From positions 1 to 63,369 of the forward strand of contig CALGOB010000080.1 of the NCBI GenBank assembly GCA_937958005.1: a DNA stretch of 63,369 nt, in the 5' to 3' direction. The number at the start of each line of letters is the position of its first letter. Position 1 is the first letter of the stretch. The stretch is from an uncultured Cyclobacteriaceae bacterium. Lineage in GTDB: Bacteria; Bacteroidota; Bacteroidia; Cytophagales; Cyclobacteriaceae. Shown here piece by piece: positions 26,569 to 62,857 of the stretch. A program made the translations under genes and the position numbers. The notes below the pieces were generated by a model. It made no database searches and was not told where the DNA came from. It was given only the letters and a program-made list of their open reading frames with translations.

Positions 26569-26705
26569 AATACTTGGGCAAAGTAACAAAAAGGGGCTAA
26601 CTTGTTACTAGCAGTCATGTCAAATCCTATGAATATAATGATGGGGTTATCCCTACCCTCATTCTGGAAGAGATGTCTGATGATAGGTTAGGTGGAATTA
26701 TTCAT
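26569..26705 (+). pseudogene. Three-copy gene scrap, copy 2
   Basis: Matches 18060-18197 closely (ACAAAAAGGGGCTAACTTGT against ACAAAAAGGGGTTAACTTGT) and reads SHVKSYEYNDGVIPTLILEE and EMSDDRLGGI in the same frame. Decayed; no start codon. Confidence 0.45.
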
Positions 26706-26919
26706 GACAAACCATGAGCTTGCGTAGTAAGTAATTGATTTACTTTTATGATTAAAAAAATAGGAATTGACATAGTCCAAATTTGAGGAACATTAATTTT
26801 ACTCCACTGAATCTATTATGCTGATGGTCAACGAATTAGCTTTGCTAACAATTATCTCCCTGGCCAAGCATCCTAAATTATTCGAGTTAAAGAGGAAAGA
26901 TTATTAAATGATTGGTTTT

Positions 26920-27080
26920 AACCCGCTTTTTGTATTAGAAATCGTTATGAACTTATATAATTTAGGGTTATAGCCAATTATCATAGAGAAGCACAGCGTG
27001 GTTATAGTGATTTAACAAACTTGTGTTAAGCGTTTGTAATGAATAGGCTTATAATCGGAATAGCTTTTCTAATGCATAAT
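26920..27080 (+). repeat. Family B inverted-repeat element
   Basis: Starts AACCCGCTTTTTGTATTAG, contains TTTAACAAACTTGTGTTAAG and ends TTCTAATGCATAATAC. Its ends are degraded forms of AACCCGAATTATGCATTAG, so families A and B share terminal sequences. Confidence 0.6.
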
Positions 27081-55607: not shown

Positions 55608-55663
55608 ATCCAGAAAAGTAAAACTTTAATATAGTTAGCTTGTTATTCTACAAGGCAAAGAAA

Positions 55664-56305
55664 ATGAATTTTAAGTCAAAAGAGATACAGGCTGGGGCAT
55701 TAATTATCCTTTTACACGTTGTGGGGGTAATTGGATACTCCATTGATGAATTGAGGCAGTATTTTATATTATTGACCCCGTACAATTTATTAATTACTGG
55801 GGTTACTTTGATATATTTCCATGTCAAGCAAGGTTTGGGGAAATGGTATTTGCTTCCAATAGTCTATTTGATAGGTTGGTTTGCGGAGTGGCTTGGGGTG
55901 GAGTATGGTGTTTTGTTTGGTGAATATCAGTATGGGGATGCTTTGGGCTATAAAGTGTTAAGTATTCCACTTATAATAGGCGTAAATTGGCTCGTTTTAG
56001 GGTATGCATTCGGTGCGGTTTCGCAATATTTATTCTCGAGTAGGGTTTTGATAATTTTATTTGCTTCGCTAGGCATGGTATTACTTGATTTATTGATTGA
56101 ACCGATAGCTATTAGGTATGATTATTGGCTTTGGCATGATAAATTGATTCCAATGAGAAACTACGTTGGATGGTTTTTTGTTTCATTGATAGTACAATAC
56201 CTTTTAAGTTTAGTGAACCTTAAGAAAAATTTTAAATTAAGTTTAGCAATTTTAGGCGCTCAAATCTTGTTTTTTGCACTTTTAAATTTATTTAATAACT
56301 TTTAA
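55664..56305 (+). CDS. cruF: Carotenoid hydratase CruF-like (DUF422)
   Basis: From ATG 55664 the 213-residue membrane protein has six to seven membrane segments and the DUF422 pattern GWFAEWLGVEYGVLFGEYQY (about residues 71-90), IPLIIGVNWLVLGYA and DLLIEPIAIRYDYWLWHD. CruF adds water to the psi end of carotenoids, giving 1'-hydroxy carotenoids. It fits the crt operon 1.7 kb downstream and lies 80 nt before the MerR-type regulator. A TTG-type upstream start at 55640 is not convincing. Confidence 0.85.
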   Translation: MNFKSKEIQAGALIILLHVVGVIGYSIDELRQYFILLTPYNLLITGVTLIYFHVKQGLGKWYLLPIVYLIGWFAEWLGVEYGVLFGEYQYGDALGYKVLSIPLIIGVNWLVLGYAFGAVSQYLFSSRVLIILFASLGMVLLDLLIEPIAIRYDYWLWHDKLIPMRNYVGWFFVSLIVQYLLSLVNLKKNFKLSLAILGAQILFFALLNLFNNF

Positions 56306-56385
56306 CTGAACAAATTGTCAAACACTCTGTTATTAGCTTAGTTAAGTAAATTTGATGATGTGTAACTTTGCAGGGGAGAAAAAAT

Positions 56386-57282
56386 ATGGGAACTTTTTCA
56401 ATTAAAGATTTAGAACATTTATCAGGGATTAAAGCCCACACTATCAGGATTTGGGAACAGCGCTATGAATTGATTCACCCTAAGCGTACCGAAACCAACA
56501 TCCGGTTTTATAATGATAAAGATCTGAAACTTATCTTGAATGTATCCTTGTTAAAGGACAATGGCTTTAAAATTTCGAAGATTGCCGAAATGAATGATGG
56601 TGAAATTCAACGAGAAGTCATCAAGCTGACAGAAAAGAAATTAAAGTATCCTGACCAGATTCATGCACTTACTATTGCCATGGTGGATATAGATGAGGAA
56701 AGGTTTGAAAAAATAATATCCACTAACATCCTTCAAATCGGTTTTGAGAAAACGATGATAAATATTATTTATCCTTTCTTATCAAAAATAGGCGTATTAT
56801 GGCAGACTGGATCTATAAACCCAGGTCAAGAACACTTTGTCTCTAATTTAATAAGGCAAAAACTAATAGTTGCGATAGACGGTCAATATGTATCACCAAA
56901 TGAGCACTCTAAGAAATTTCTTTTGTTTTTACCAGAAGATGAACTACACGAATTAAGCTTATTGTTTATCAACTACATGGCAAGAGCTAGGCAGCATAAA
57001 TCTGTATATTTAGGTCAGACCATGCCATTTGAAGATTTGACCCACATTTATGACATTCATAAGCCAGATTACCTTTTGACTGTTATAACTTCGTCTCCAG
57101 GCACTTCACATATAGAAACCTATATCAATAAATTAGGAAAGACATTCCCTGAGTCAAAAATAATTTTAACTGGCTATCAAGTAATCGGGCAAGGTCTAGA
57201 GATTCCTGAAAATACAATTATCCTAAACCGTATTGATGAGATTGTTGATTTCATAGAAGAACCAAGCTTGATAGAGGCTTAG
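56386..57282 (+). CDS. MerR/CarH-like regulator of carotenoid genes
   Basis: The 298-residue protein (ATG 56386) has a MerR helix-turn-helix (FSIKDLEHLSGIKAHTIRIW) and a C-terminal half like the B12-binding domains of CarH/LitR. Conserved marks of that family are Trp139 and Glu149-His150 (W-x9-EH) and His188 in DELHELS, the position of the lower cobalt ligand. However, the residue expected to be Gly three after His188 is Ser, and the later GG is GY, so cobalamin binding is uncertain. A TAACTTTG -7 box at 56363-56370 implies a leader of about 10 nt. It is likely the dark repressor of the crt operon. Confidence 0.88.
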   Translation: MGTFSIKDLEHLSGIKAHTIRIWEQRYELIHPKRTETNIRFYNDKDLKLILNVSLLKDNGFKISKIAEMNDGEIQREVIKLTEKKLKYPDQIHALTIAMVDIDEERFEKIISTNILQIGFEKTMINIIYPFLSKIGVLWQTGSINPGQEHFVSNLIRQKLIVAIDGQYVSPNEHSKKFLLFLPEDELHELSLLFINYMARARQHKSVYLGQTMPFEDLTHIYDIHKPDYLLTVITSSPGTSHIETYINKLGKTFPESKIILTGYQVIGQGLEIPENTIILNRIDEIVDFIEEPSLIEA

Positions 57283-57810
57283 ATAACGTGGTTTTTGTCT
57301 GAAAAACACCCACCAGAAAGGCTCACGCAAAGATGGTCGTAATTAACCAATAGAAATTCACGATTCATCAAAAAAACGCCATTTTACCCGAATTATACTT
57401 TAGGTTATCAAGAGAAAATCATAAATAGCTATTGGATAGTTGTTTAAATTCTTATTTGTAACTGAACGATAGCCTCCTTTTTGGTGAGTTTATTCCTACT
57501 CGCATTTTGGATGAGGCGTCTGATGATAGGTTAGATGGAATGATGCATTGGAGAATCTAGTAGAACTCTATTCCGATAATAAGTCTCTTCATTACAACTG
57601 CTTAACATAAGTTTGTTAAACCACCATAACCCTGCTATGATTCTCGAACATAAGTGCCTGCAATTTTCAGCTTTATAATCTTATAACGATTTCTAATGCA
57701 TAATTCGGGTTGAATAAGGAGAAGATTAGAACTTACGTGAATTACAATTCCTTGTTTTTTTTATAGGCTTTTGAGATGATATTAAATATCTCATGAATTG
57801 TTCTAAAAGG
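57283..57810. other. Gap between regulator and operators
   Basis: No gene is seen. Most of it is the mosaic element at 57385-57711. GAGATGATATTAAATATCTC at about 57774-57793 is a further small dyad. Confidence 0.5.
57385..57711. repeat. Mosaic inverted-repeat element (families A and B)
   Basis: Left end ACCCGAATTATACTTTAG (from 57386) and right end CTAATGCATAATTCGGGTT (57693-57711) are inverse to each other. Inside lie family A sequence (to about 57480), copy 3 of the gene scrap (about 57488-57560, reading FIPTRILDEASDDRLDG) and an inverted family B element (57585-57711). Confidence 0.65.
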
Positions 57811-57844
57811 ATCATTTTGTTTAATTTTTATTAAACAAAATGAT
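57811..57844. promoter_or_regulatory. Operator dyad 1 of the crt operon
   Basis: ATCATTTTGTTTAAT (57811-57825) and ATTAAACAAAATGAT (57830-57844) form a perfect 15-bp inverted repeat with a 4-nt centre. Confidence 0.75.
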
Positions 57845-57898
57845 TCCCTAAAAGTGTCTCAATATCTCATATAGCGCGTTTGATAGTATATATGTTGA

Positions 57899-57939
57899 AT
57901 TTTGTTTAATGCGTTTAATATTTTATTAAACAAAATGAT
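57899..57939. promoter_or_regulatory. Operator dyad 2 of the crt operon
   Basis: ATTTTGTTTAAT (57899-57910) and ATTAAACAAAATGAT (57925-57939) repeat the half-sites of dyad 1, with a 14-nt spacer holding another GTTTAAT (57913-57919). Confidence 0.72.
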
Positions 57940-57942
57940 GGG

Positions 57943-57979
57943 TTTTTGTTTAATCTTTGTATATTTGAATTAAACAAAA
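57943..57979 (+). promoter_or_regulatory. Operator dyad 3 overlapping the crt promoter
   Basis: TTTTTGTTTAAT (57943-57954) and ATTAAACAAAA (57969-57979) flank TATATTTG at 57960-57967, which matches the Bacteroidota -7 consensus. The ECF start codon is at 57991, so the transcript leader would be short. Binding here should block RNA polymerase. Confidence 0.72.
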
Positions 57980-57990
57980 GAAATAAGATT

Positions 57991-58503
57991 ATGACTGCAT
58001 TAGAATTTAGTTATGAACTCAATAGTTTGTCTCCTCTTTTGAAACCATATGCGCTAAAGCTGACAAGGGATAGTGAAGATGCAGATGATTTAATGCAGGA
58101 AACTATGATGAAGGCCTATGTTAATAGAGAAAAGTTTGCAGATGGTACTAACTTGAAAGCATGGTTATATACCATCATGAAAAACACTTTTATTACCAAT
58201 TATCAGCGAATGATGCGTAAAAACACTTTCATTGATACAACAGATAATATGCATTACATTAATAGTACTGATATAAGGGTGGAAAACAGTGCATATCAGT
58301 CCTTTGTAATGAAGGATATTAATGTAGCAATCGATAAACTGAGCGATACTTATAAAAAACCTTTCCTTATGTACTTTAGAGGATTTAAATATCACGAAAT
58401 TGCGGATAGGTTAAGTATTCCTATTGGAACTGTCAAAAACAGGATTCATATAGCAAGAAAAGATCTTAAAACATATTTAAAAGGATACGCTACAAAATTT
58501 TAG
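57991..58503 (+). CDS. ECF sigma factor of the carotenoid operon
   Basis: From ATG 57991 the 170-residue protein has sigma region 2 (SEDADDLMQETMMKAYVNRE and AWLYTIMKNTFIT) and region 4 (FKYHEIADRLSIPIGTVKNR). The upstream in-frame start at 57946 lies inside the operator and promoter and is rejected. No anti-sigma gene follows; instead crtI starts 8 nt after the stop. In Bacteroidota such sigma factors often head crt operons under a MerR/LitR-type repressor. It may drive other light- or stress-induced genes elsewhere. Confidence 0.93.
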   Translation: MTALEFSYELNSLSPLLKPYALKLTRDSEDADDLMQETMMKAYVNREKFADGTNLKAWLYTIMKNTFITNYQRMMRKNTFIDTTDNMHYINSTDIRVENSAYQSFVMKDINVAIDKLSDTYKKPFLMYFRGFKYHEIADRLSIPIGTVKNRIHIARKDLKTYLKGYATKF

Positions 58504-58511
58504 TTTAGAAA

Positions 58512-59984
58512 ATGTCTAAAAAGAAAGCCTGTGTAATTGGAGCAGGATTCTCAGGATTATCAGTTGCCACAGAATTAGCTTCTAATGGTTATGAAGTTTA
58601 TATACTAGAAAAGAATAATTCAGTAGGAGGAAGGGCAAGAAGGTTTGAAGAGGCTGGTTTTACTTTTGATATGGGGCCATCGTGGTATTGGATGCCTGAT
58701 GTTTTCGAACGTTACTTTGAAAGATTTGGTAAGAAAGTAACGGATTACTATCATTTAGAAAGACTTGACCCATCTTACTCTGTTATTTTTTCAGAAGAAG
58801 ATTTTGTTGATATTCCTGCTTCTATGGTTGGAATGGAGGCTCTGTTCGAATCCTATGAAAAAGGTAGTTCCTTACAATTAAGGAAGTTTTTAGATCAGGC
58901 AGCCTATAAATATGAAGTGGGAATTAATGACCTGGTATACAAACCAAGTAGGAATCTTTCTGAATTTATGGATTTACGCCTATTAAAAGGAATTATTAAA
59001 ATGGATGTTTTTCAGTCTATGGCAAAGCATGTCCGTAAATTTTTCACTCATCCTAAATTGATACAGCTAATGGAATTCCCAGTTTTGTTTTTAGGGGCTT
59101 TACCTGAAAATACGCCTGCTCTGTATAGTTTGATGAATTATGCAGATATTAGTTTAGGTACTTGGTATCCAGCGGGGGGGATGTTTAAAATTATAGAAGG
59201 GATGGAATCTTTGGCAAAAGAAAAAGGAGTAAAGATTAAGACAGGTATTGCAGTTACAGGTTTCAATTATGAAAATAATAAAATCTCCGAAATACTTACA
59301 GATTCTGGAGTTTTTAAAGCAGATGTTGTGGTGGCGAGCGCAGATTATCATCATATAGATCAAAAAGTATTAGATGCTAAATATTCAAATTATTCTAAGG
59401 AATACTGGGATAAAAGAACAATGGCACCTTCCTGTTTGCTTTATTATTTAGGAGTCAATAAGAAACTGGATAAACTTAGACATCACAATTTGTTTTTCGA
59501 TTCAGACTTTCAAAAGCATGCAGAAGAAATTTATACCACAAAAGAATGGCCTGATGACCCACTTTTTTATGTTTCAGTTGTTAGTAAAACAGATGAAGCT
59601 TCGGCTCCTGAGGGTATGGAAAATGTGTTTTTGCTAATTCCAGTTGCTGCAGGTCTTGAAGACAATGAGGAAATCAAGGAAAAATATTTTCAGAAAGTCA
59701 TGGATAGGCTAGAGAAACTAACTGGCCAGGCTATCAAGGAGCATATAGTATATAAAAGAACTTATGCTGCTTCTGATTTTAAATCTGATTATCATGCTTT
59801 TAAGGGAAATGCATATGGATTAGCTAATACCTTAAAACAAACAGCTATATTAAAACCTGCGCTAAAGAATAAAAAACTTAGTAACTTGTATCATACGGGA
59901 CAATTAACAGTGCCTGGGCCAGGTGTTCCTCCATCCATTATTTCTGGAATAGTAGTTGCAAGGGAGGTAATTAATGATAATTAA
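58512..59984 (+). CDS. crtI: Phytoene desaturase
   Basis: The 490-residue FAD enzyme begins with the dinucleotide site ACVIGAGFSGLSVATELASN (residues 6-25) and GGRARRFEEAGFTFDMGPSW, and ends with the CrtI signature YHTGQLTVPGPGVPPSIISG. It converts phytoene to lycopene in the membrane. Full length. crtB follows after 24 nt. Membership in the CrtD/CrtN side of the family is less likely because crtB is next to it. Confidence 0.95.
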   Translation: MSKKKACVIGAGFSGLSVATELASNGYEVYILEKNNSVGGRARRFEEAGFTFDMGPSWYWMPDVFERYFERFGKKVTDYYHLERLDPSYSVIFSEEDFVDIPASMVGMEALFESYEKGSSLQLRKFLDQAAYKYEVGINDLVYKPSRNLSEFMDLRLLKGIIKMDVFQSMAKHVRKFFTHPKLIQLMEFPVLFLGALPENTPALYSLMNYADISLGTWYPAGGMFKIIEGMESLAKEKGVKIKTGIAVTGFNYENNKISEILTDSGVFKADVVVASADYHHIDQKVLDAKYSNYSKEYWDKRTMAPSCLLYYLGVNKKLDKLRHHNLFFDSDFQKHAEEIYTTKEWPDDPLFYVSVVSKTDEASAPEGMENVFLLIPVAAGLEDNEEIKEKYFQKVMDRLEKLTGQAIKEHIVYKRTYAASDFKSDYHAFKGNAYGLANTLKQTAILKPALKNKKLSNLYHTGQLTVPGPGVPPSIISGIVVAREVINDN

Positions 59985-60008: not shown

Positions 60009-60842
60009 ATGGATCTTTACAGTACAACAACTTTTAAATGCAGTAAACTAATTACTCAACATTATAGTACTTCATTTACCTTAGGAATTAAAACGTTAGA
60101 CAAATCTCTTCATTTCCCTATCTATGCTATCTATGGTTATGTGAGATATGCTGATGAAATTGTTGATACATTTCATGAACATGATAAGAAGTATTTATTG
60201 CAGAAGTTCAAAGAAGATACATTTGAAGCGATCAATAATGGAATCAGCTTAAACCCTGTAATTCATTCTTTTCAAGAAGTGGTTAATCGCTACAATATAG
60301 AATCAGAATTAATAGAAGCATTCCTGCATAGCATGGAGATGGATTTGTATGAAGAATCCTATAATGAGAAGCTTTATGAAGAATACATTTATGGGTCTGC
60401 TGAAGTGGTGGGTTTGATGTGCCTTCATGTGTTTTGTGACGGCGATCAATCTGAGTATGAAAGATTGAAATCTCCGGCAAGGAAATTAGGCGCGGCGTTC
60501 CAAAAGGTGAATTTTATAAGAGATATTAAAAGTGACTTCAAAGACAGGGGGAGAGTGTACTTCCCAGGGGTCAACTTTGAAGCTTTTACTAAAGAAGATA
60601 AGGAAATAATTGAAGAAGATATAGCTAGAGATTTTAAGGAGGCATATCAAGGAATTATGGAGCTTCCTAAAGGAGCAAAATTAGGGGTTTACATTGCTTA
60701 TATATACTATTTCAAATTATTTAAGAAAATCACAAAATTGCCTGCATCCAGAGTTTTGTCTGAAAGAATTAGAATACCTGATGCTAACAAACTAGGGTTA
60801 TTGGTTAAGACTTACTTCATGCACAGACTTAATTTTATTTAA
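60009..60842 (+). CDS. crtB: Phytoene synthase
   Basis: The 277-residue prenyltransferase has both Asp-rich motifs, YADEIVD near residue 43 and DIKSDFKDRGRVYFP near 173, and SGSAEVVG-like YGSAEVVGLMC near 128. It condenses two geranylgeranyl diphosphates to phytoene. ATG 60009 is chosen; TTG 60003 would add two residues. Its stop overlaps the next ATG (TAATG). Confidence 0.95.
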   Translation: MDLYSTTTFKCSKLITQHYSTSFTLGIKTLDKSLHFPIYAIYGYVRYADEIVDTFHEHDKKYLLQKFKEDTFEAINNGISLNPVIHSFQEVVNRYNIESELIEAFLHSMEMDLYEESYNEKLYEEYIYGSAEVVGLMCLHVFCDGDQSEYERLKSPARKLGAAFQKVNFIRDIKSDFKDRGRVYFPGVNFEAFTKEDKEIIEEDIARDFKEAYQGIMELPKGAKLGVYIAYIYYFKLFKKITKLPASRVLSERIRIPDANKLGLLVKTYFMHRLNFI

Positions 60843-61552
60843 TGATGGCTCTGTACTTTTATTTACATATTTTCACCATTTCTTTTCCTCTTCTTAGATC
60901 ATTTGAGAAAAGGATAAGCTATGTCAGTAAATGGCAGTATTTATTTCCTGCAATATTCATCACGGGAACATTCTTTCTTATTTGGGATGTTTATTTTACA
61001 ATTAGTGGAATCTGGGGTTTTAATGAGACATATTTGATTGGATATAGCTTTTTAAGTTTGCCGTTAGAGGAATGGCTGTTTTTCCTTACGGTACCTTTTG
61101 CCAGTGTATTTATTTATGAATCCGTTTTACTTTTTATCAAGAAGGATATTTTTGGAGGACATGGAAAAAGGGTTTTATGGCTTGCCTCAATTTTTTTGGT
61201 CTTAGTCGCAGTAATAAACTTTGAGAAAGCCTATACTTTTTGGAATTTCCTTTTCACTGGTGTTTTTATATGGATAAGCTTATTGCTTTTGAAACCAAAT
61301 CATATTGATAGATTTCTATTAGCTTATTTATTCCATTTAATACCTTTTTTATTGGTGAATGGTGTATTAACAGGAGCATTCACCGAAAGTCCTATTGTTT
61401 GGTATAATGATGATCAAAACCTAGCAATAAGAATTTTAACAATACCTATTGAAGATACAATTTATGCATTTCTTCTTTTGTTTATGAACGTCAGTTTGTA
61501 TGAGTTTTTTAAGCGAAAGAGATTTTTTAAAACCATATTTAAAAATGACTGA
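60842..61552 (+). CDS. crtYcd: Lycopene cyclase, fused CrtYc-CrtYd type
   Basis: The 236-residue protein has six to seven membrane segments in two similar halves, each with the cyclase-domain signature: LPLEEWLFFLTVPF (about 76-89) and IPIEDTIYAFLLLFMN (about 203-218). This is the heterodimer-type bacterial/fungal/archaeal cyclase in fused form, unrelated to plant-type CrtY. It makes beta rings, giving beta-carotene. It overlaps crtB by 1 nt and ispH by 8 nt. Confidence 0.9.
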   Translation: MMALYFYLHIFTISFPLLRSFEKRISYVSKWQYLFPAIFITGTFFLIWDVYFTISGIWGFNETYLIGYSFLSLPLEEWLFFLTVPFASVFIYESVLLFIKKDIFGGHGKRVLWLASIFLVLVAVINFEKAYTFWNFLFTGVFIWISLLLLKPNHIDRFLLAYLFHLIPFLLVNGVLTGAFTESPIVWYNDDQNLAIRILTIPIEDTIYAFLLLFMNVSLYEFFKRKRFFKTIFKND

Positions 61553-62399
61553 CATGCTTGGGCTAAATGTAAATATTGATACTAATTCCGGTTTTTGTTT
61601 TGGGGTTGTCTATGCTATTGAGATGGCAGAAGACATACTGAATGAAGAAGACTATCTATACTGTTTAGGCGACATAGTTCACAATGATGAAGAGGTGAGA
61701 AGGCTAGAGTCTAAAGGGTTGAAAATTATCTCTCACCAAGATCTTGAGAACCTTCACGATGAAAAAGTCTTAATAAGAGCCCATGGAGAACCACCTGCTA
61801 CCTATGAACTTGCTTTGAAGAATAACATTGAATTAGTAGATGCTTCTTGTCCAGTTGTATTGAAATTACAGAACAGAATTAAAAACTCTTATGATAAAAA
61901 AGATAAGATTTATATATACGGTAAGCATGGTCATGCTGAAGTAATTGGTCTTATGGGACAAACTAACCAAGAGGCTATCGTTTTTCAGGATATTACTGAA
62001 CTAGATATAAATGAGATGCCAGAGAACATTACCCTATATAGCCAAACCACCAAGAGCACTGATAAATTTTATGAGATAACACGTACCTTGGCAGAGGCAG
62101 GTGTAAACGTAAATGCGAATGACACAATTTGTAGACAAGTTTCAAATAGGGATAAAGAACTAAGGGAGTTTGCAACTAGATACGATAGGATCATATTTGT
62201 ATCAGGAACCAAATCATCTAATGGCAAGGTATTATTTAATATATGTAAAATGAATAATAAGGACACACACTTTATATCCAATAAAGAACAATTAGATAAA
62301 AGTTGGTTTTCTCAAGGAGATTCTATTGGCATTTGTGGAGCTACATCTACACCAATGTGGCTGATGGAAGACGTAGCAAAAGAAATAAAGAGTTACTAA
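61545..62399 (+). CDS. ispH: 4-hydroxy-3-methylbut-2-enyl diphosphate reductase
   Basis: The 284-residue enzyme has the three cluster cysteines in SGFCFGV, DASCPVV and DTICRQVSNR, and the histidines of RAHGEPP and GKHGHAEVIG. It performs the last step of the MEP pathway, producing IPP and DMAPP. ATG 61545 overlaps the cyclase stop; ATG 61554 (MLGLNV) is an equally good start. A gene start at 61500 would lie inside the cyclase and is rejected. Its place in the crt operon ties precursor supply to pigment synthesis. Confidence 0.95.
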   Translation: MTDMLGLNVNIDTNSGFCFGVVYAIEMAEDILNEEDYLYCLGDIVHNDEEVRRLESKGLKIISHQDLENLHDEKVLIRAHGEPPATYELALKNNIELVDASCPVVLKLQNRIKNSYDKKDKIYIYGKHGHAEVIGLMGQTNQEAIVFQDITELDINEMPENITLYSQTTKSTDKFYEITRTLAEAGVNVNANDTICRQVSNRDKELREFATRYDRIIFVSGTKSSNGKVLFNICKMNNKDTHFISNKEQLDKSWFSQGDSIGICGATSTPMWLMEDVAKEIKSY

Positions 62400-62857
62400 T
62401 GCAAATAGCTATTAATATTTCCTTAATAGTGGCTACTTTCTTTTTTATGGAGTTTGTAGCATGGTTTACACATAAATATGTAATGCATGGTTTTCTTTGG
62501 GGGTGGCATAAATCTCACCATACCATACATGATCATGCGTTAGAAAAAAATGACCTCTTTGCCTTTGTATTTAGCATACCCTCTATTTTACTAATAGTGA
62601 TAGGATATGAAATTCCACAATTGAGTTTTGTGAAATTCATTGGATATGGAGTGATGTCTTATGGGGTTTTTTATTTTATATTCCATGACTTGATTGTCCA
62701 CAGAAGGGTTAAATTTAGGTACAAGGCCAAATCTAAATATATGAAACGGATCATGAATGCTCATTATGTACATCATGAAAAACATACTAAGGAAGGGGCA
62801 GAAGCCTTTGGGTTTCTGTTTGCCCCAAAAAAATATGATGATGTAGAAAATGATTGA
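62399..62857 (+). CDS. crtZ: Beta-carotene hydroxylase
   Basis: From ATG 62399, overlapping the ispH stop (TAATG), the 152-residue membrane protein has the diiron histidine motifs HKYVMHG, HKSHH, HDLIVHRR and HYVHHEKH in the CrtZ order. It adds hydroxyl groups at C3 of beta rings, giving zeaxanthin. The earlier GTG-type start at 62303 lies in ispH and is rejected. Last gene of the operon; a nested-hairpin repeat lies 70 nt downstream. Confidence 0.94.
   Translation: MQIAINISLIVATFFFMEFVAWFTHKYVMHGFLWGWHKSHHTIHDHALEKNDLFAFVFSIPSILLIVIGYEIPQLSFVKFIGYGVMSYGVFYFIFHDLIVHRRVKFRYKAKSKYMKRIMNAHYVHHEKHTKEGAEAFGFLFAPKKYDDVEND

Follow-up and report, generated by a model that had tools for sequence, protein, structure and literature searches.

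Between the gene of a MerR-type regulator and a carotenoid (crt) operon in an uncultured Cyclobacteriaceae bacterium lie three inverted-repeat dyads, and the question raised by this locus is which protein reads them and what signal it would pass on to the operon. The dyads stand in the 708-bp intergenic stretch (57283-57990) that separates the regulator gene from the operon, whose first gene encodes an ECF sigma factor; positions are those of the window, by which we mean the whole 63,369-nucleotide stretch of DNA analysed. We consider it quite probable that dyads 2 and 3, with dyad 1 as an auxiliary, are the operators at which the CarH-like protein encoded at 56386 would repress the ECF-sigma/crt operon in the dark, to be released in the light, as part of a wider light regulon in relatives; we infer binding, repression, dependence on B12 and light, and oligomeric state. 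The features concerned are as follows.

55640-56305, plus strand: carotenoid-biosynthesis membrane protein (Pfam Caroten_synth; CruF-like, below the NCBIfam cut-off), upstream of the regulator gene
56386-57282, plus strand: CarH-like MerR regulator of 298 aa, with a MerR HTH, a four-helix B12-binding_2 cap and, by model, a Rossmann domain
57381-57715, unstranded: interspersed repeat of about 335 bp with 23-nt imperfect terminal inverted repeats (83%), between regulator and operators
57811-57844, unstranded: dyad 1, a 22-bp TTGTTTAA-N6-TTAAACAA core within perfect 15-bp arms
57900-57935, unstranded: dyad 2, the predicted distal operator, TTGTTTAA-N16-TTAAACAA, half-site centres 24 bp apart
57944-57979, unstranded: dyad 3, the predicted proximal operator, TTGTTTAA-N16-TTAAACAA, overlapping the promoter
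57960-57967, plus strand: TATATTTG, presumed -7 box of the ECF-crt operon, inside dyad 3; matches TAnnTTTG
57991-58503, plus strand: ECF sigma factor, first gene of the operon, with relatives in 58 of 59 genomes (closest 54-76% identity)
58512-59984, plus strand: CrtI-type phytoene desaturase (NCBIfam CrtID, over the cut-off)
60009-60842, plus strand: phytoene synthase, CrtB-like (Pfam SQS_PSY; no NCBIfam cut-off reached)
60842-61552, plus strand: lycopene cyclase of the CarR-domain type
61500-62399, plus strand: IspH/LytB (start codon uncertain)
62393-62857, plus strand: putative carotene hydroxylase-like membrane protein (assigned by eye; no Pfam or NCBIfam match)

All three dyads are built from TTTTGTTTAAT/ATTAAACAAAA arms. 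In dyad 1 the arms (57811-57825 and 57830-57844) enclose a 4-nt spacer and place the half-site centres 14 bp apart, which is the perfect 15-bp inverted repeat described in an earlier, sequence-only reading of this DNA; that reading was also right that dyads 2 and 3 reuse the half-sites with longer spacers (11-bp arms, 14-nt spacers) and that dyad 3 encloses the -7 box. Two of the centres that it gave, 57827 and 57961, agree with the actual 57827.5 and 57961.5, and the third, 57919, was about 1.5 bp off (57917.5). Dyads 2 and 3 are identical in geometry and start 44 bp apart, and the difference in spacer between them (N16) and dyad 1 (N6), both counted from the 8-bp half-site, is exactly 10 bp, about one helical turn. 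The half-site core TAAACA occurs at 57832, 57927 and 57971, and on the minus strand at 57818, 57903 and 57947. The octamer TATATTTG we take to be a -7 box of the Bacteroidetes type, presumably with the consensus TAnnTTTG. The interspersed repeat is not part of the operator, and its presence explains much of the 708-bp gap, which compares with about 220 bp in relatives (e.g. locus L072). The repeat is also found at 26639-27063 of the window, and at least 49 other stretches of the genome resemble parts of it (76-97% identity), in some cases two stretches belonging to one copy.

The paired arrangement is far rarer than its parts. An exact search for TTGTTTAA-N(4-20)-TTAAACAA returned three sites in the 5.49-Mb genome, all at this promoter, against none for the reversed control, and widening the spacer to N2-32 added two scattered sites elsewhere. 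When the stretch 57283-57990 was shuffled with dinucleotides preserved (n = 20,000), 19,995 shuffles had no N2-32 dyad, five had one and none had more, where the real sequence has three. The window holds 82 copies of the single half-site TTGTTTAAT at up to one mismatch, where 68 (sd 7.9) are expected. Rarity is thus a property of the pairing, and lone half-sites are unremarkable. Two further sites in this genome differ from the motif at 3 of 22 positions (reversed control 0), one of them between a 6-PTPS-FolE pair and a CrtI-like gene. Sites with one mismatch in 16 number two (on contigs C20 and C255), which is the chance level, the reversed control also giving two. The one on C20 (locus L208, G000:C20:3542) is an N16 site about 95 bp 5' of a polyprenyl synthetase gene, which is a possible isoprenoid-supply member of the regulon in this genome, with a site at chance level. 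Light-related neighbours were looked for at the sites on C255 and C147, and none was evident there.

Is the arrangement kept in relatives? We scored the best 80 of 580 loci carrying the ECF ortholog (from Algoriphagus, Spirosoma, Marivirga, Roseivirga, Pontibacter, Hymenobacter and others) by the best N15-17 dyad within 300 bp upstream, requiring at least 14 of 16 letters. Such a dyad precedes the orthologous ECF-sigma/crt operon at 79 of the 80 loci, against 14 of 1600 mononucleotide shuffles. In a second set, the best 30 of 58 genomes with an ECF match (our own included), it precedes the ECF gene at 28 loci, against 4 of 600 shuffles; the two sets share genomes, and the relatives are phylogenetically non-independent. 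The comparative search that the sequence-only reading had put forward as able to refute it, for the motif before crt operons of related genomes, therefore came out in its favor. The exceptions are these: one genome (L079/L024; G030/G072) yielded neither a dyad before the ECF gene nor a MerR ortholog, and at another (L019/G011), where the MerR protein is only 38% identical, no dyad of at least 14 of 16 letters precedes the ECF gene and one lies instead between the MerR gene and crtI (L148). Throughout, the half-site letters and the 16-bp spacing are kept, and most spacer letters vary. With any spacer from N2 to N32 allowed, 59 related genomes including our own hold 110 sites against 24 in the reversed control (both summed from the table); among the 75 sites listed, N16 accounts for 41 in 24 genomes, N17 for six and other spacings for none to three each, so that the N16 geometry is a property of the element. 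We conclude that the dyads are a real and widely conserved element, the predicted operator of a CarH-like regulator.

The N6 geometry of dyad 1 is not the general form, N16 being the commonest in relatives, and the reading that comes closest to displacing part of our own concerns this dyad alone: it may be a non-functional duplicate of the right half of dyad 2, with dyads 2 and 3 as the true operator. An exact 19-bp repeat common to dyads 1 and 2 speaks for such an origin, and so does the lack of genome-wide enrichment of N6 in relatives (3 of the 75 sites listed). Against it, a genome of the same genus (L016) also carries an N6 dyad, with one mismatch, at -157, which places it about as far from the start codon as dyad 1, and the 80-locus set contains 39 further N16 sites (at least 13 of 16 letters) 100-300 bp upstream. 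Dyad 1 is likely the counterpart of these far-upstream sites, one turn shorter; we give the duplicate a real but lesser chance than a functional auxiliary site.

The position of the dyads with respect to the promoter is also conserved. A proximal dyad (at least 13 of 16 letters) centred no more than 60 bp from the start codon is present at 74 of the 80 loci, five others having dyads only further up and one having none. Counted from the start of the proximal dyad, 57 of these 74 loci have a TAnnTTTG box at one of two offsets, +15/16 (41 boxes) or -5 (17 boxes), one locus having both. The distances to more upstream dyads cluster at 43-45 bp (31) and 63-65 bp (14), with two loci in both clusters. 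Of 38 pairings of a box with a second dyad 40-70 bp upstream, 34 place the start of this second dyad 58-60 bp ahead of the box. The share is 27 of 29 for boxes at +15/16 and 7 of 9 for those at -5, where the exceptions are L069, with a gap of 44-45, and L129. The distance from distal dyad to box is therefore kept, and it is the proximal dyad that has slid, by about two helical turns. Such a register suits a protein that holds one face of the helix and overlaps the promoter, as a repressor would. The promoter studied here has, by eye, no clear -33 TTG. A helical periodicity of the far third dyad was considered and set aside (Rayleigh R no higher than 0.42, near 11.25 bp, from data that are not independent). 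We did the same with a second peak upstream of ECF genes, formed by N5-7 dyads that in large part fall within N16 sites.

What kind of protein, then, is encoded at 56386? Pfam recognizes MerR_1 (E 1.3e-15) and B12-binding_2, and the nearest sequences of solved structure are TtLitR/TtCarH (E about 1e-13). An AF2 model (33 sequences; pLDDT 87.9, pTM 0.82) finds full-length TtCarH as its top Foldseek match (5c8d, E 1.5e-14, TM 0.58/0.61), with an rmsd of about 10 that points to a different domain placement, and it superposes on the TtCarH cobalamin domain with TM about 0.8 (by target length) and rmsd about 3; the light-state structure of CtMerR is also among the matches. As modelled, the protein has the TtCarH fold, Rossmann domain included. 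Its recognition helix reads R21-x-W-E-Q-R-Y where CarH has RxWERRY, Gln replacing the first Arg of RRY, which we accept as a match; Gln stands there in 89 of 96 orthologs (a set that includes our own protein, drawn from 124 loci with a MerR match after removal of duplicates and incomplete sequences). In TtCarH, adenosylcobalamin is held by W131, E141, H142 and H177 (PMC11796333, in part). The equivalent Ado-contact residues, which comprise the Wx9EH signature intact in our protein (W139, E149, H150) and the lower-ligand H188, are kept in 96, 96, 94 and 95 of the 96 orthologs (in that order), all four together in 94, and also together in 8 of 9 class-mate loci whose proteins are 36-63% identical. 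The genome has two genes of cobalamin adenosyltransferase families.

Other hallmarks of CarH are incomplete. Of the full B12 motif, D/ExHx2G/P...SxT/V...GG, our protein has the ExH, with H188 as its His, but the G/P position is Ser191 and the GG site has one Gly (by eye); among the 96 orthologs the position of Ser191 holds Gly in 17 and Pro in one, and it is Gly in 8 of the 9 class-mates. No ortholog among the 96 has His at the position of TtCarH His132 (71 have Gln), nor does any of the nine class-mates (all Gln), and in TtCarH this residue is the upper ligand of the light state, important for loss of the tetramer (PMC10442372, in part). The CarH equivalog NF052513 is the best NCBIfam match, at 81.4 bits against a cut-off of 400. 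With parts of the B12 motif missing, the curated cut-off unreached and no tandem-repeat operator, we do not file the protein as CarH; as far as sequence tells it is CarH-like, CarH being the closest known kind.

These gaps speak for a reading in which the dyads are operators of a CarH-like protein that works without B12 or light, through a redox, metabolite or protein-partner switch of the CarA type, and there are precedents: CarA keeps its B12 motif and works without B12, and class II LitR acts via a LOV partner (PMC8156234 and PMC9758184, both in part). Several observations speak against such a switch here. Of the 96 orthologs, 94 keep Wx9EH, named as a criterion that tells CarH from CarA (PMC9304148, in part), together with the lower-ligand His. 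Seven of the 9 class-mate loci combine an intact ExHxxG with all four contact residues. CtMerR has Arg at the His132 position, and its tetramer nevertheless disassembles in light (available text of PMC11796333), so that a light response is possible in our protein too, by a route other than that of TtCarH. Finally, the targets are light genes. We regard B12-independent control as unlikely, although it retains more weight than the alternatives that follow.

A further possibility is that a protein other than the 56386 regulator reads the dyads. The assignment is made from sequence, and at 38 of the 80 loci no MerR gene lies within about 4 kb upstream, against 42 with a homolog in that range; 20 genomes of the 38 were searched and 18 of them have a MerR gene elsewhere. 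The two exceptions are L079 and a 3.7-Mb draft genome (L107) that has a perfect dyad and in which no MerR gene was found. The distribution of the two elements across the phylum argues strongly the other way. In a sample of 247 genomes, with MerR presence called at E <= 1e-20, exact N16 dyads occur in 32 of 54 genomes with the MerR protein and in none of 193 without (Fisher p 4.5e-26, not corrected for descent), so that all 32 dyad genomes have the regulator; in total the sample holds 71 exact N16 sites against 5 in the reversed control (summed). The other 22 MerR genomes have no exact N16 dyad, and they include all four that were called on weak matches (E 1e-23 to 1e-27). Where the MerR gene is unlinked, a dyad stands directly before it in 6 of 18 cases and one gene further up in a seventh, and at five class-mate loci (L222, L229, L231, L233 and L238, genes named by eye) the MerR gene is followed by the dyad and then by crtI, without an intervening ECF gene. 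The dyad-bearing genomes span other families of the class, and the operator is thus more than the lineage-specific one that the sequence-only reading proposed. The sole dyad genome of the sample outside the class, G302, has a MerR gene 1.2 kb from its dyad, which further counts against another reader; in our view, another reader is very improbable. The protein encoded by this gene of G302 (C4:129937-132046) is 36% identical, and the pair possibly reflects a transfer of regulator and operator together. In the window itself, TAACTTTG at 56363-56370 is a possible -7 box of the regulator gene, and no exact N16 dyad precedes it.

A role of the dyads as RNA hairpins (terminators or attenuators) is scarcely credible. 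Dyad 1 does fold well (-13.6 kcal/mol, z -7.6), and dyads 2 and 3 come out more stable than the majority of 200 shuffles (z -3.2 and -2.6), which is no more than one expects of inverted repeats in general. Yet the latter two fold so weakly (-6.3 and -5.8 kcal/mol) that we reject the reading for them, dyad 3 spans the promoter and so cannot lie wholly in the transcript, no U-tract follows dyad 1 (by eye), and conservation falls on the half-site letters and the 16-bp spacing.

We therefore return to the dyads as operators of the 56386 protein. In the dark, this protein, probably with adenosylcobalamin, would bind TTGTTTAA-N16-TTAAACAA as a two-fold symmetric oligomer. The proximal copy would cover the -7 box and the likely start site, and the distal copy would end just upstream of the expected -33 element, so that polymerase would be excluded and the ECF-sigma/crt operon kept off. 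Light, or loss of the adenosyl ligand, would release the protein and allow carotenoid synthesis together with expression of the co-transcribed ECF sigma factor. Dyad 1 would act as an auxiliary upstream site, and the same regulator-operator pair may run a wider light regulon in related bacteria.

The genes next to dyads in relatives give an outline of this regulon. We surveyed 71 site loci, 62 of them with an exact N16, as one best site per genome plus 13 added by hand; this is not a census. The Pfam families of the 86 ORFs lying no more than 300 bp from a site and facing it are led by sigma-70 region 2 (13), fasciclin (9), CrtI-like amine oxidase (8), rhodopsin (6) and 6-PTPS (6), with two each of photolyase, SDR, MerR and DUF4199. 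The sigma and photolyase genes had been named in the sequence-only reading as places to search for the motif, and it is found before both. Gyrase B and YkuD (four each) also face sites, as divergent neighbours. The 127 other ORFs of the site loci are most often MerR/B12-binding_2 (13-15), amine oxidase (10), FolE (7), SDR (5) and lycopene cyclase (5), with photolyase at 2, and these commonest families are largely operon partners; the 25 families (at least two members each) listed for the 127 ORFs do not include fasciclin, rhodopsin or 6-PTPS. By its predicted genes, the regulon of the relatives is light-related. Less expected among facing genes (L060, L149, L150, L055 and L155) are a nitroreductase, DUF4199 membrane proteins (two genomes) and SDRs (two genomes).

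Two of these groups deserve comment. Fasciclin domains are rare (163 matches in 39 genomes, summed). Genes for secreted-looking fasciclin proteins lie directly 3' of N16 dyads at L053, L058 and L157, each scanned singly, and such genes also directly follow N16 dyads at L216, L219, L220, L226, L230 and L237, named by eye. AstaP of algae is a FAS1 protein that binds carotenoids (PMC10147662, in part), and by analogy the dyad-linked fasciclin proteins may be bacterial carotenoid carriers. No fasciclin gene was found in a search of our own genome, and this part of the regulon is absent there. A microbial rhodopsin gene and then a lycopene cyclase gene come right after N16 dyads at L065 (scanned) and at L049, L061, L154 and L215 (by eye), which suggests joint control of retinal supply and opsin. 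Taking these observations together, we tentatively raise a broader proposal, which we think has an appreciable chance of holding yet is somewhat more likely to fail: much of the class Bacteroidia may share a single B12-type light regulon, read through TTGTTTAA-N16-TTAAACAA by a CarH-like tetramer that is released without the His132 switch, and comprising carotenoids, rhodopsin pumps, photolyase and pterin-cofactor synthesis, along with secreted FAS1 proteins as AstaP-like carotenoid carriers.

In Chryseobacterium, also a member of the Bacteroidetes, crt genes are light-induced, and no car or lit genes are reported found in the available part of the source (PMC7064467). Published titles and abstract openings, searched with the motif string as well, gave no description of such an operator or regulon among the matches listed. 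MliR of Bizionia, a MerR-like protein of Bacteroidetes, was considered for comparison and set aside, the available text concerning iron and metabolism, with carotenoids only in passing or in references. If our reading is right, a single regulator-operator pair accounts for the control by light of pigments, rhodopsin and photorepair in a large group of bacteria. It would also offer an exact motif for genome mining, a CarH-type switch that lacks the His132 mechanism, and fasciclin proteins as candidate carotenoid binders.

Compared with CarH of Thermus thermophilus and Bacillus megaterium, the system described here is alike in fold, Wx9EH, lower-ligand His, carotenoid target, an operator that overlaps a primary promoter, and a TnnACA core. 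The CarH operator repeat is nnnnTnnACAn in 11-bp tandem (PMC9304148, in part), and the TAAACA core of our half-sites fits it; the sequence-only reading, which held the half-site to differ from a TACA/TGTA type in Thermus CarH, was mistaken on this point. What differs is the arrangement, with inverted N16 pairs at a fixed 24-bp centre spacing in place of the three or four tandem 11-bp repeats of those operators. No full TnnACA recurs at +/-11 in any of four site sets; in dyad 3 the minus strand carries a lone TnnACA at 11 bp in the inward direction (57947 and 57958). There is also a weak pseudo-repeat signal directed inward at offset 10-11, with z reaching about 6 in comparison with permuted spacers and with a local maximum of partial matches at -11 in three of the four sets; we set it aside as a CarH-style tandem unit, and it may reflect T-tract/A-tract composition. 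The protein likewise departs from CarH in lacking His132 (a comparison with TtCarH only), in its partly degenerate B12 motif, in its score of 81 of 400 bits and in RxWEQRY for RxWERRY. CtMerR of Chloracidobacterium is similar in having a Wx9EH-type signature without an equivalent of His132.

The LitR-LitS system of Streptomyces likewise has a CarH-type regulator, whose target is an ECF sigma gene at the head of a carotenoid set induced by light. That system belongs to a different phylum, and the comparison covers regulator type and gene arrangement. As for the size of the sites, canonical MerR sites measure 21-22 bp (PMC5045206, in part), which is the size of the 22-bp core of dyad 1, the N16 dyads being one turn longer. 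Another operator comparable in form is that of CarA/CarH in Myxococcus xanthus, also a site at a crt promoter with inverted repeats, about 55 bp long and bound cooperatively by CarA as two dimers (PMC8156234 and PMC9304148, both in part). In that system the inverted repeats decay from one species to another and the TnnACA repeats remain, whereas here it is the inverted geometry that is conserved, and an N16 pair would suit a two-fold symmetric dimer of dimers.
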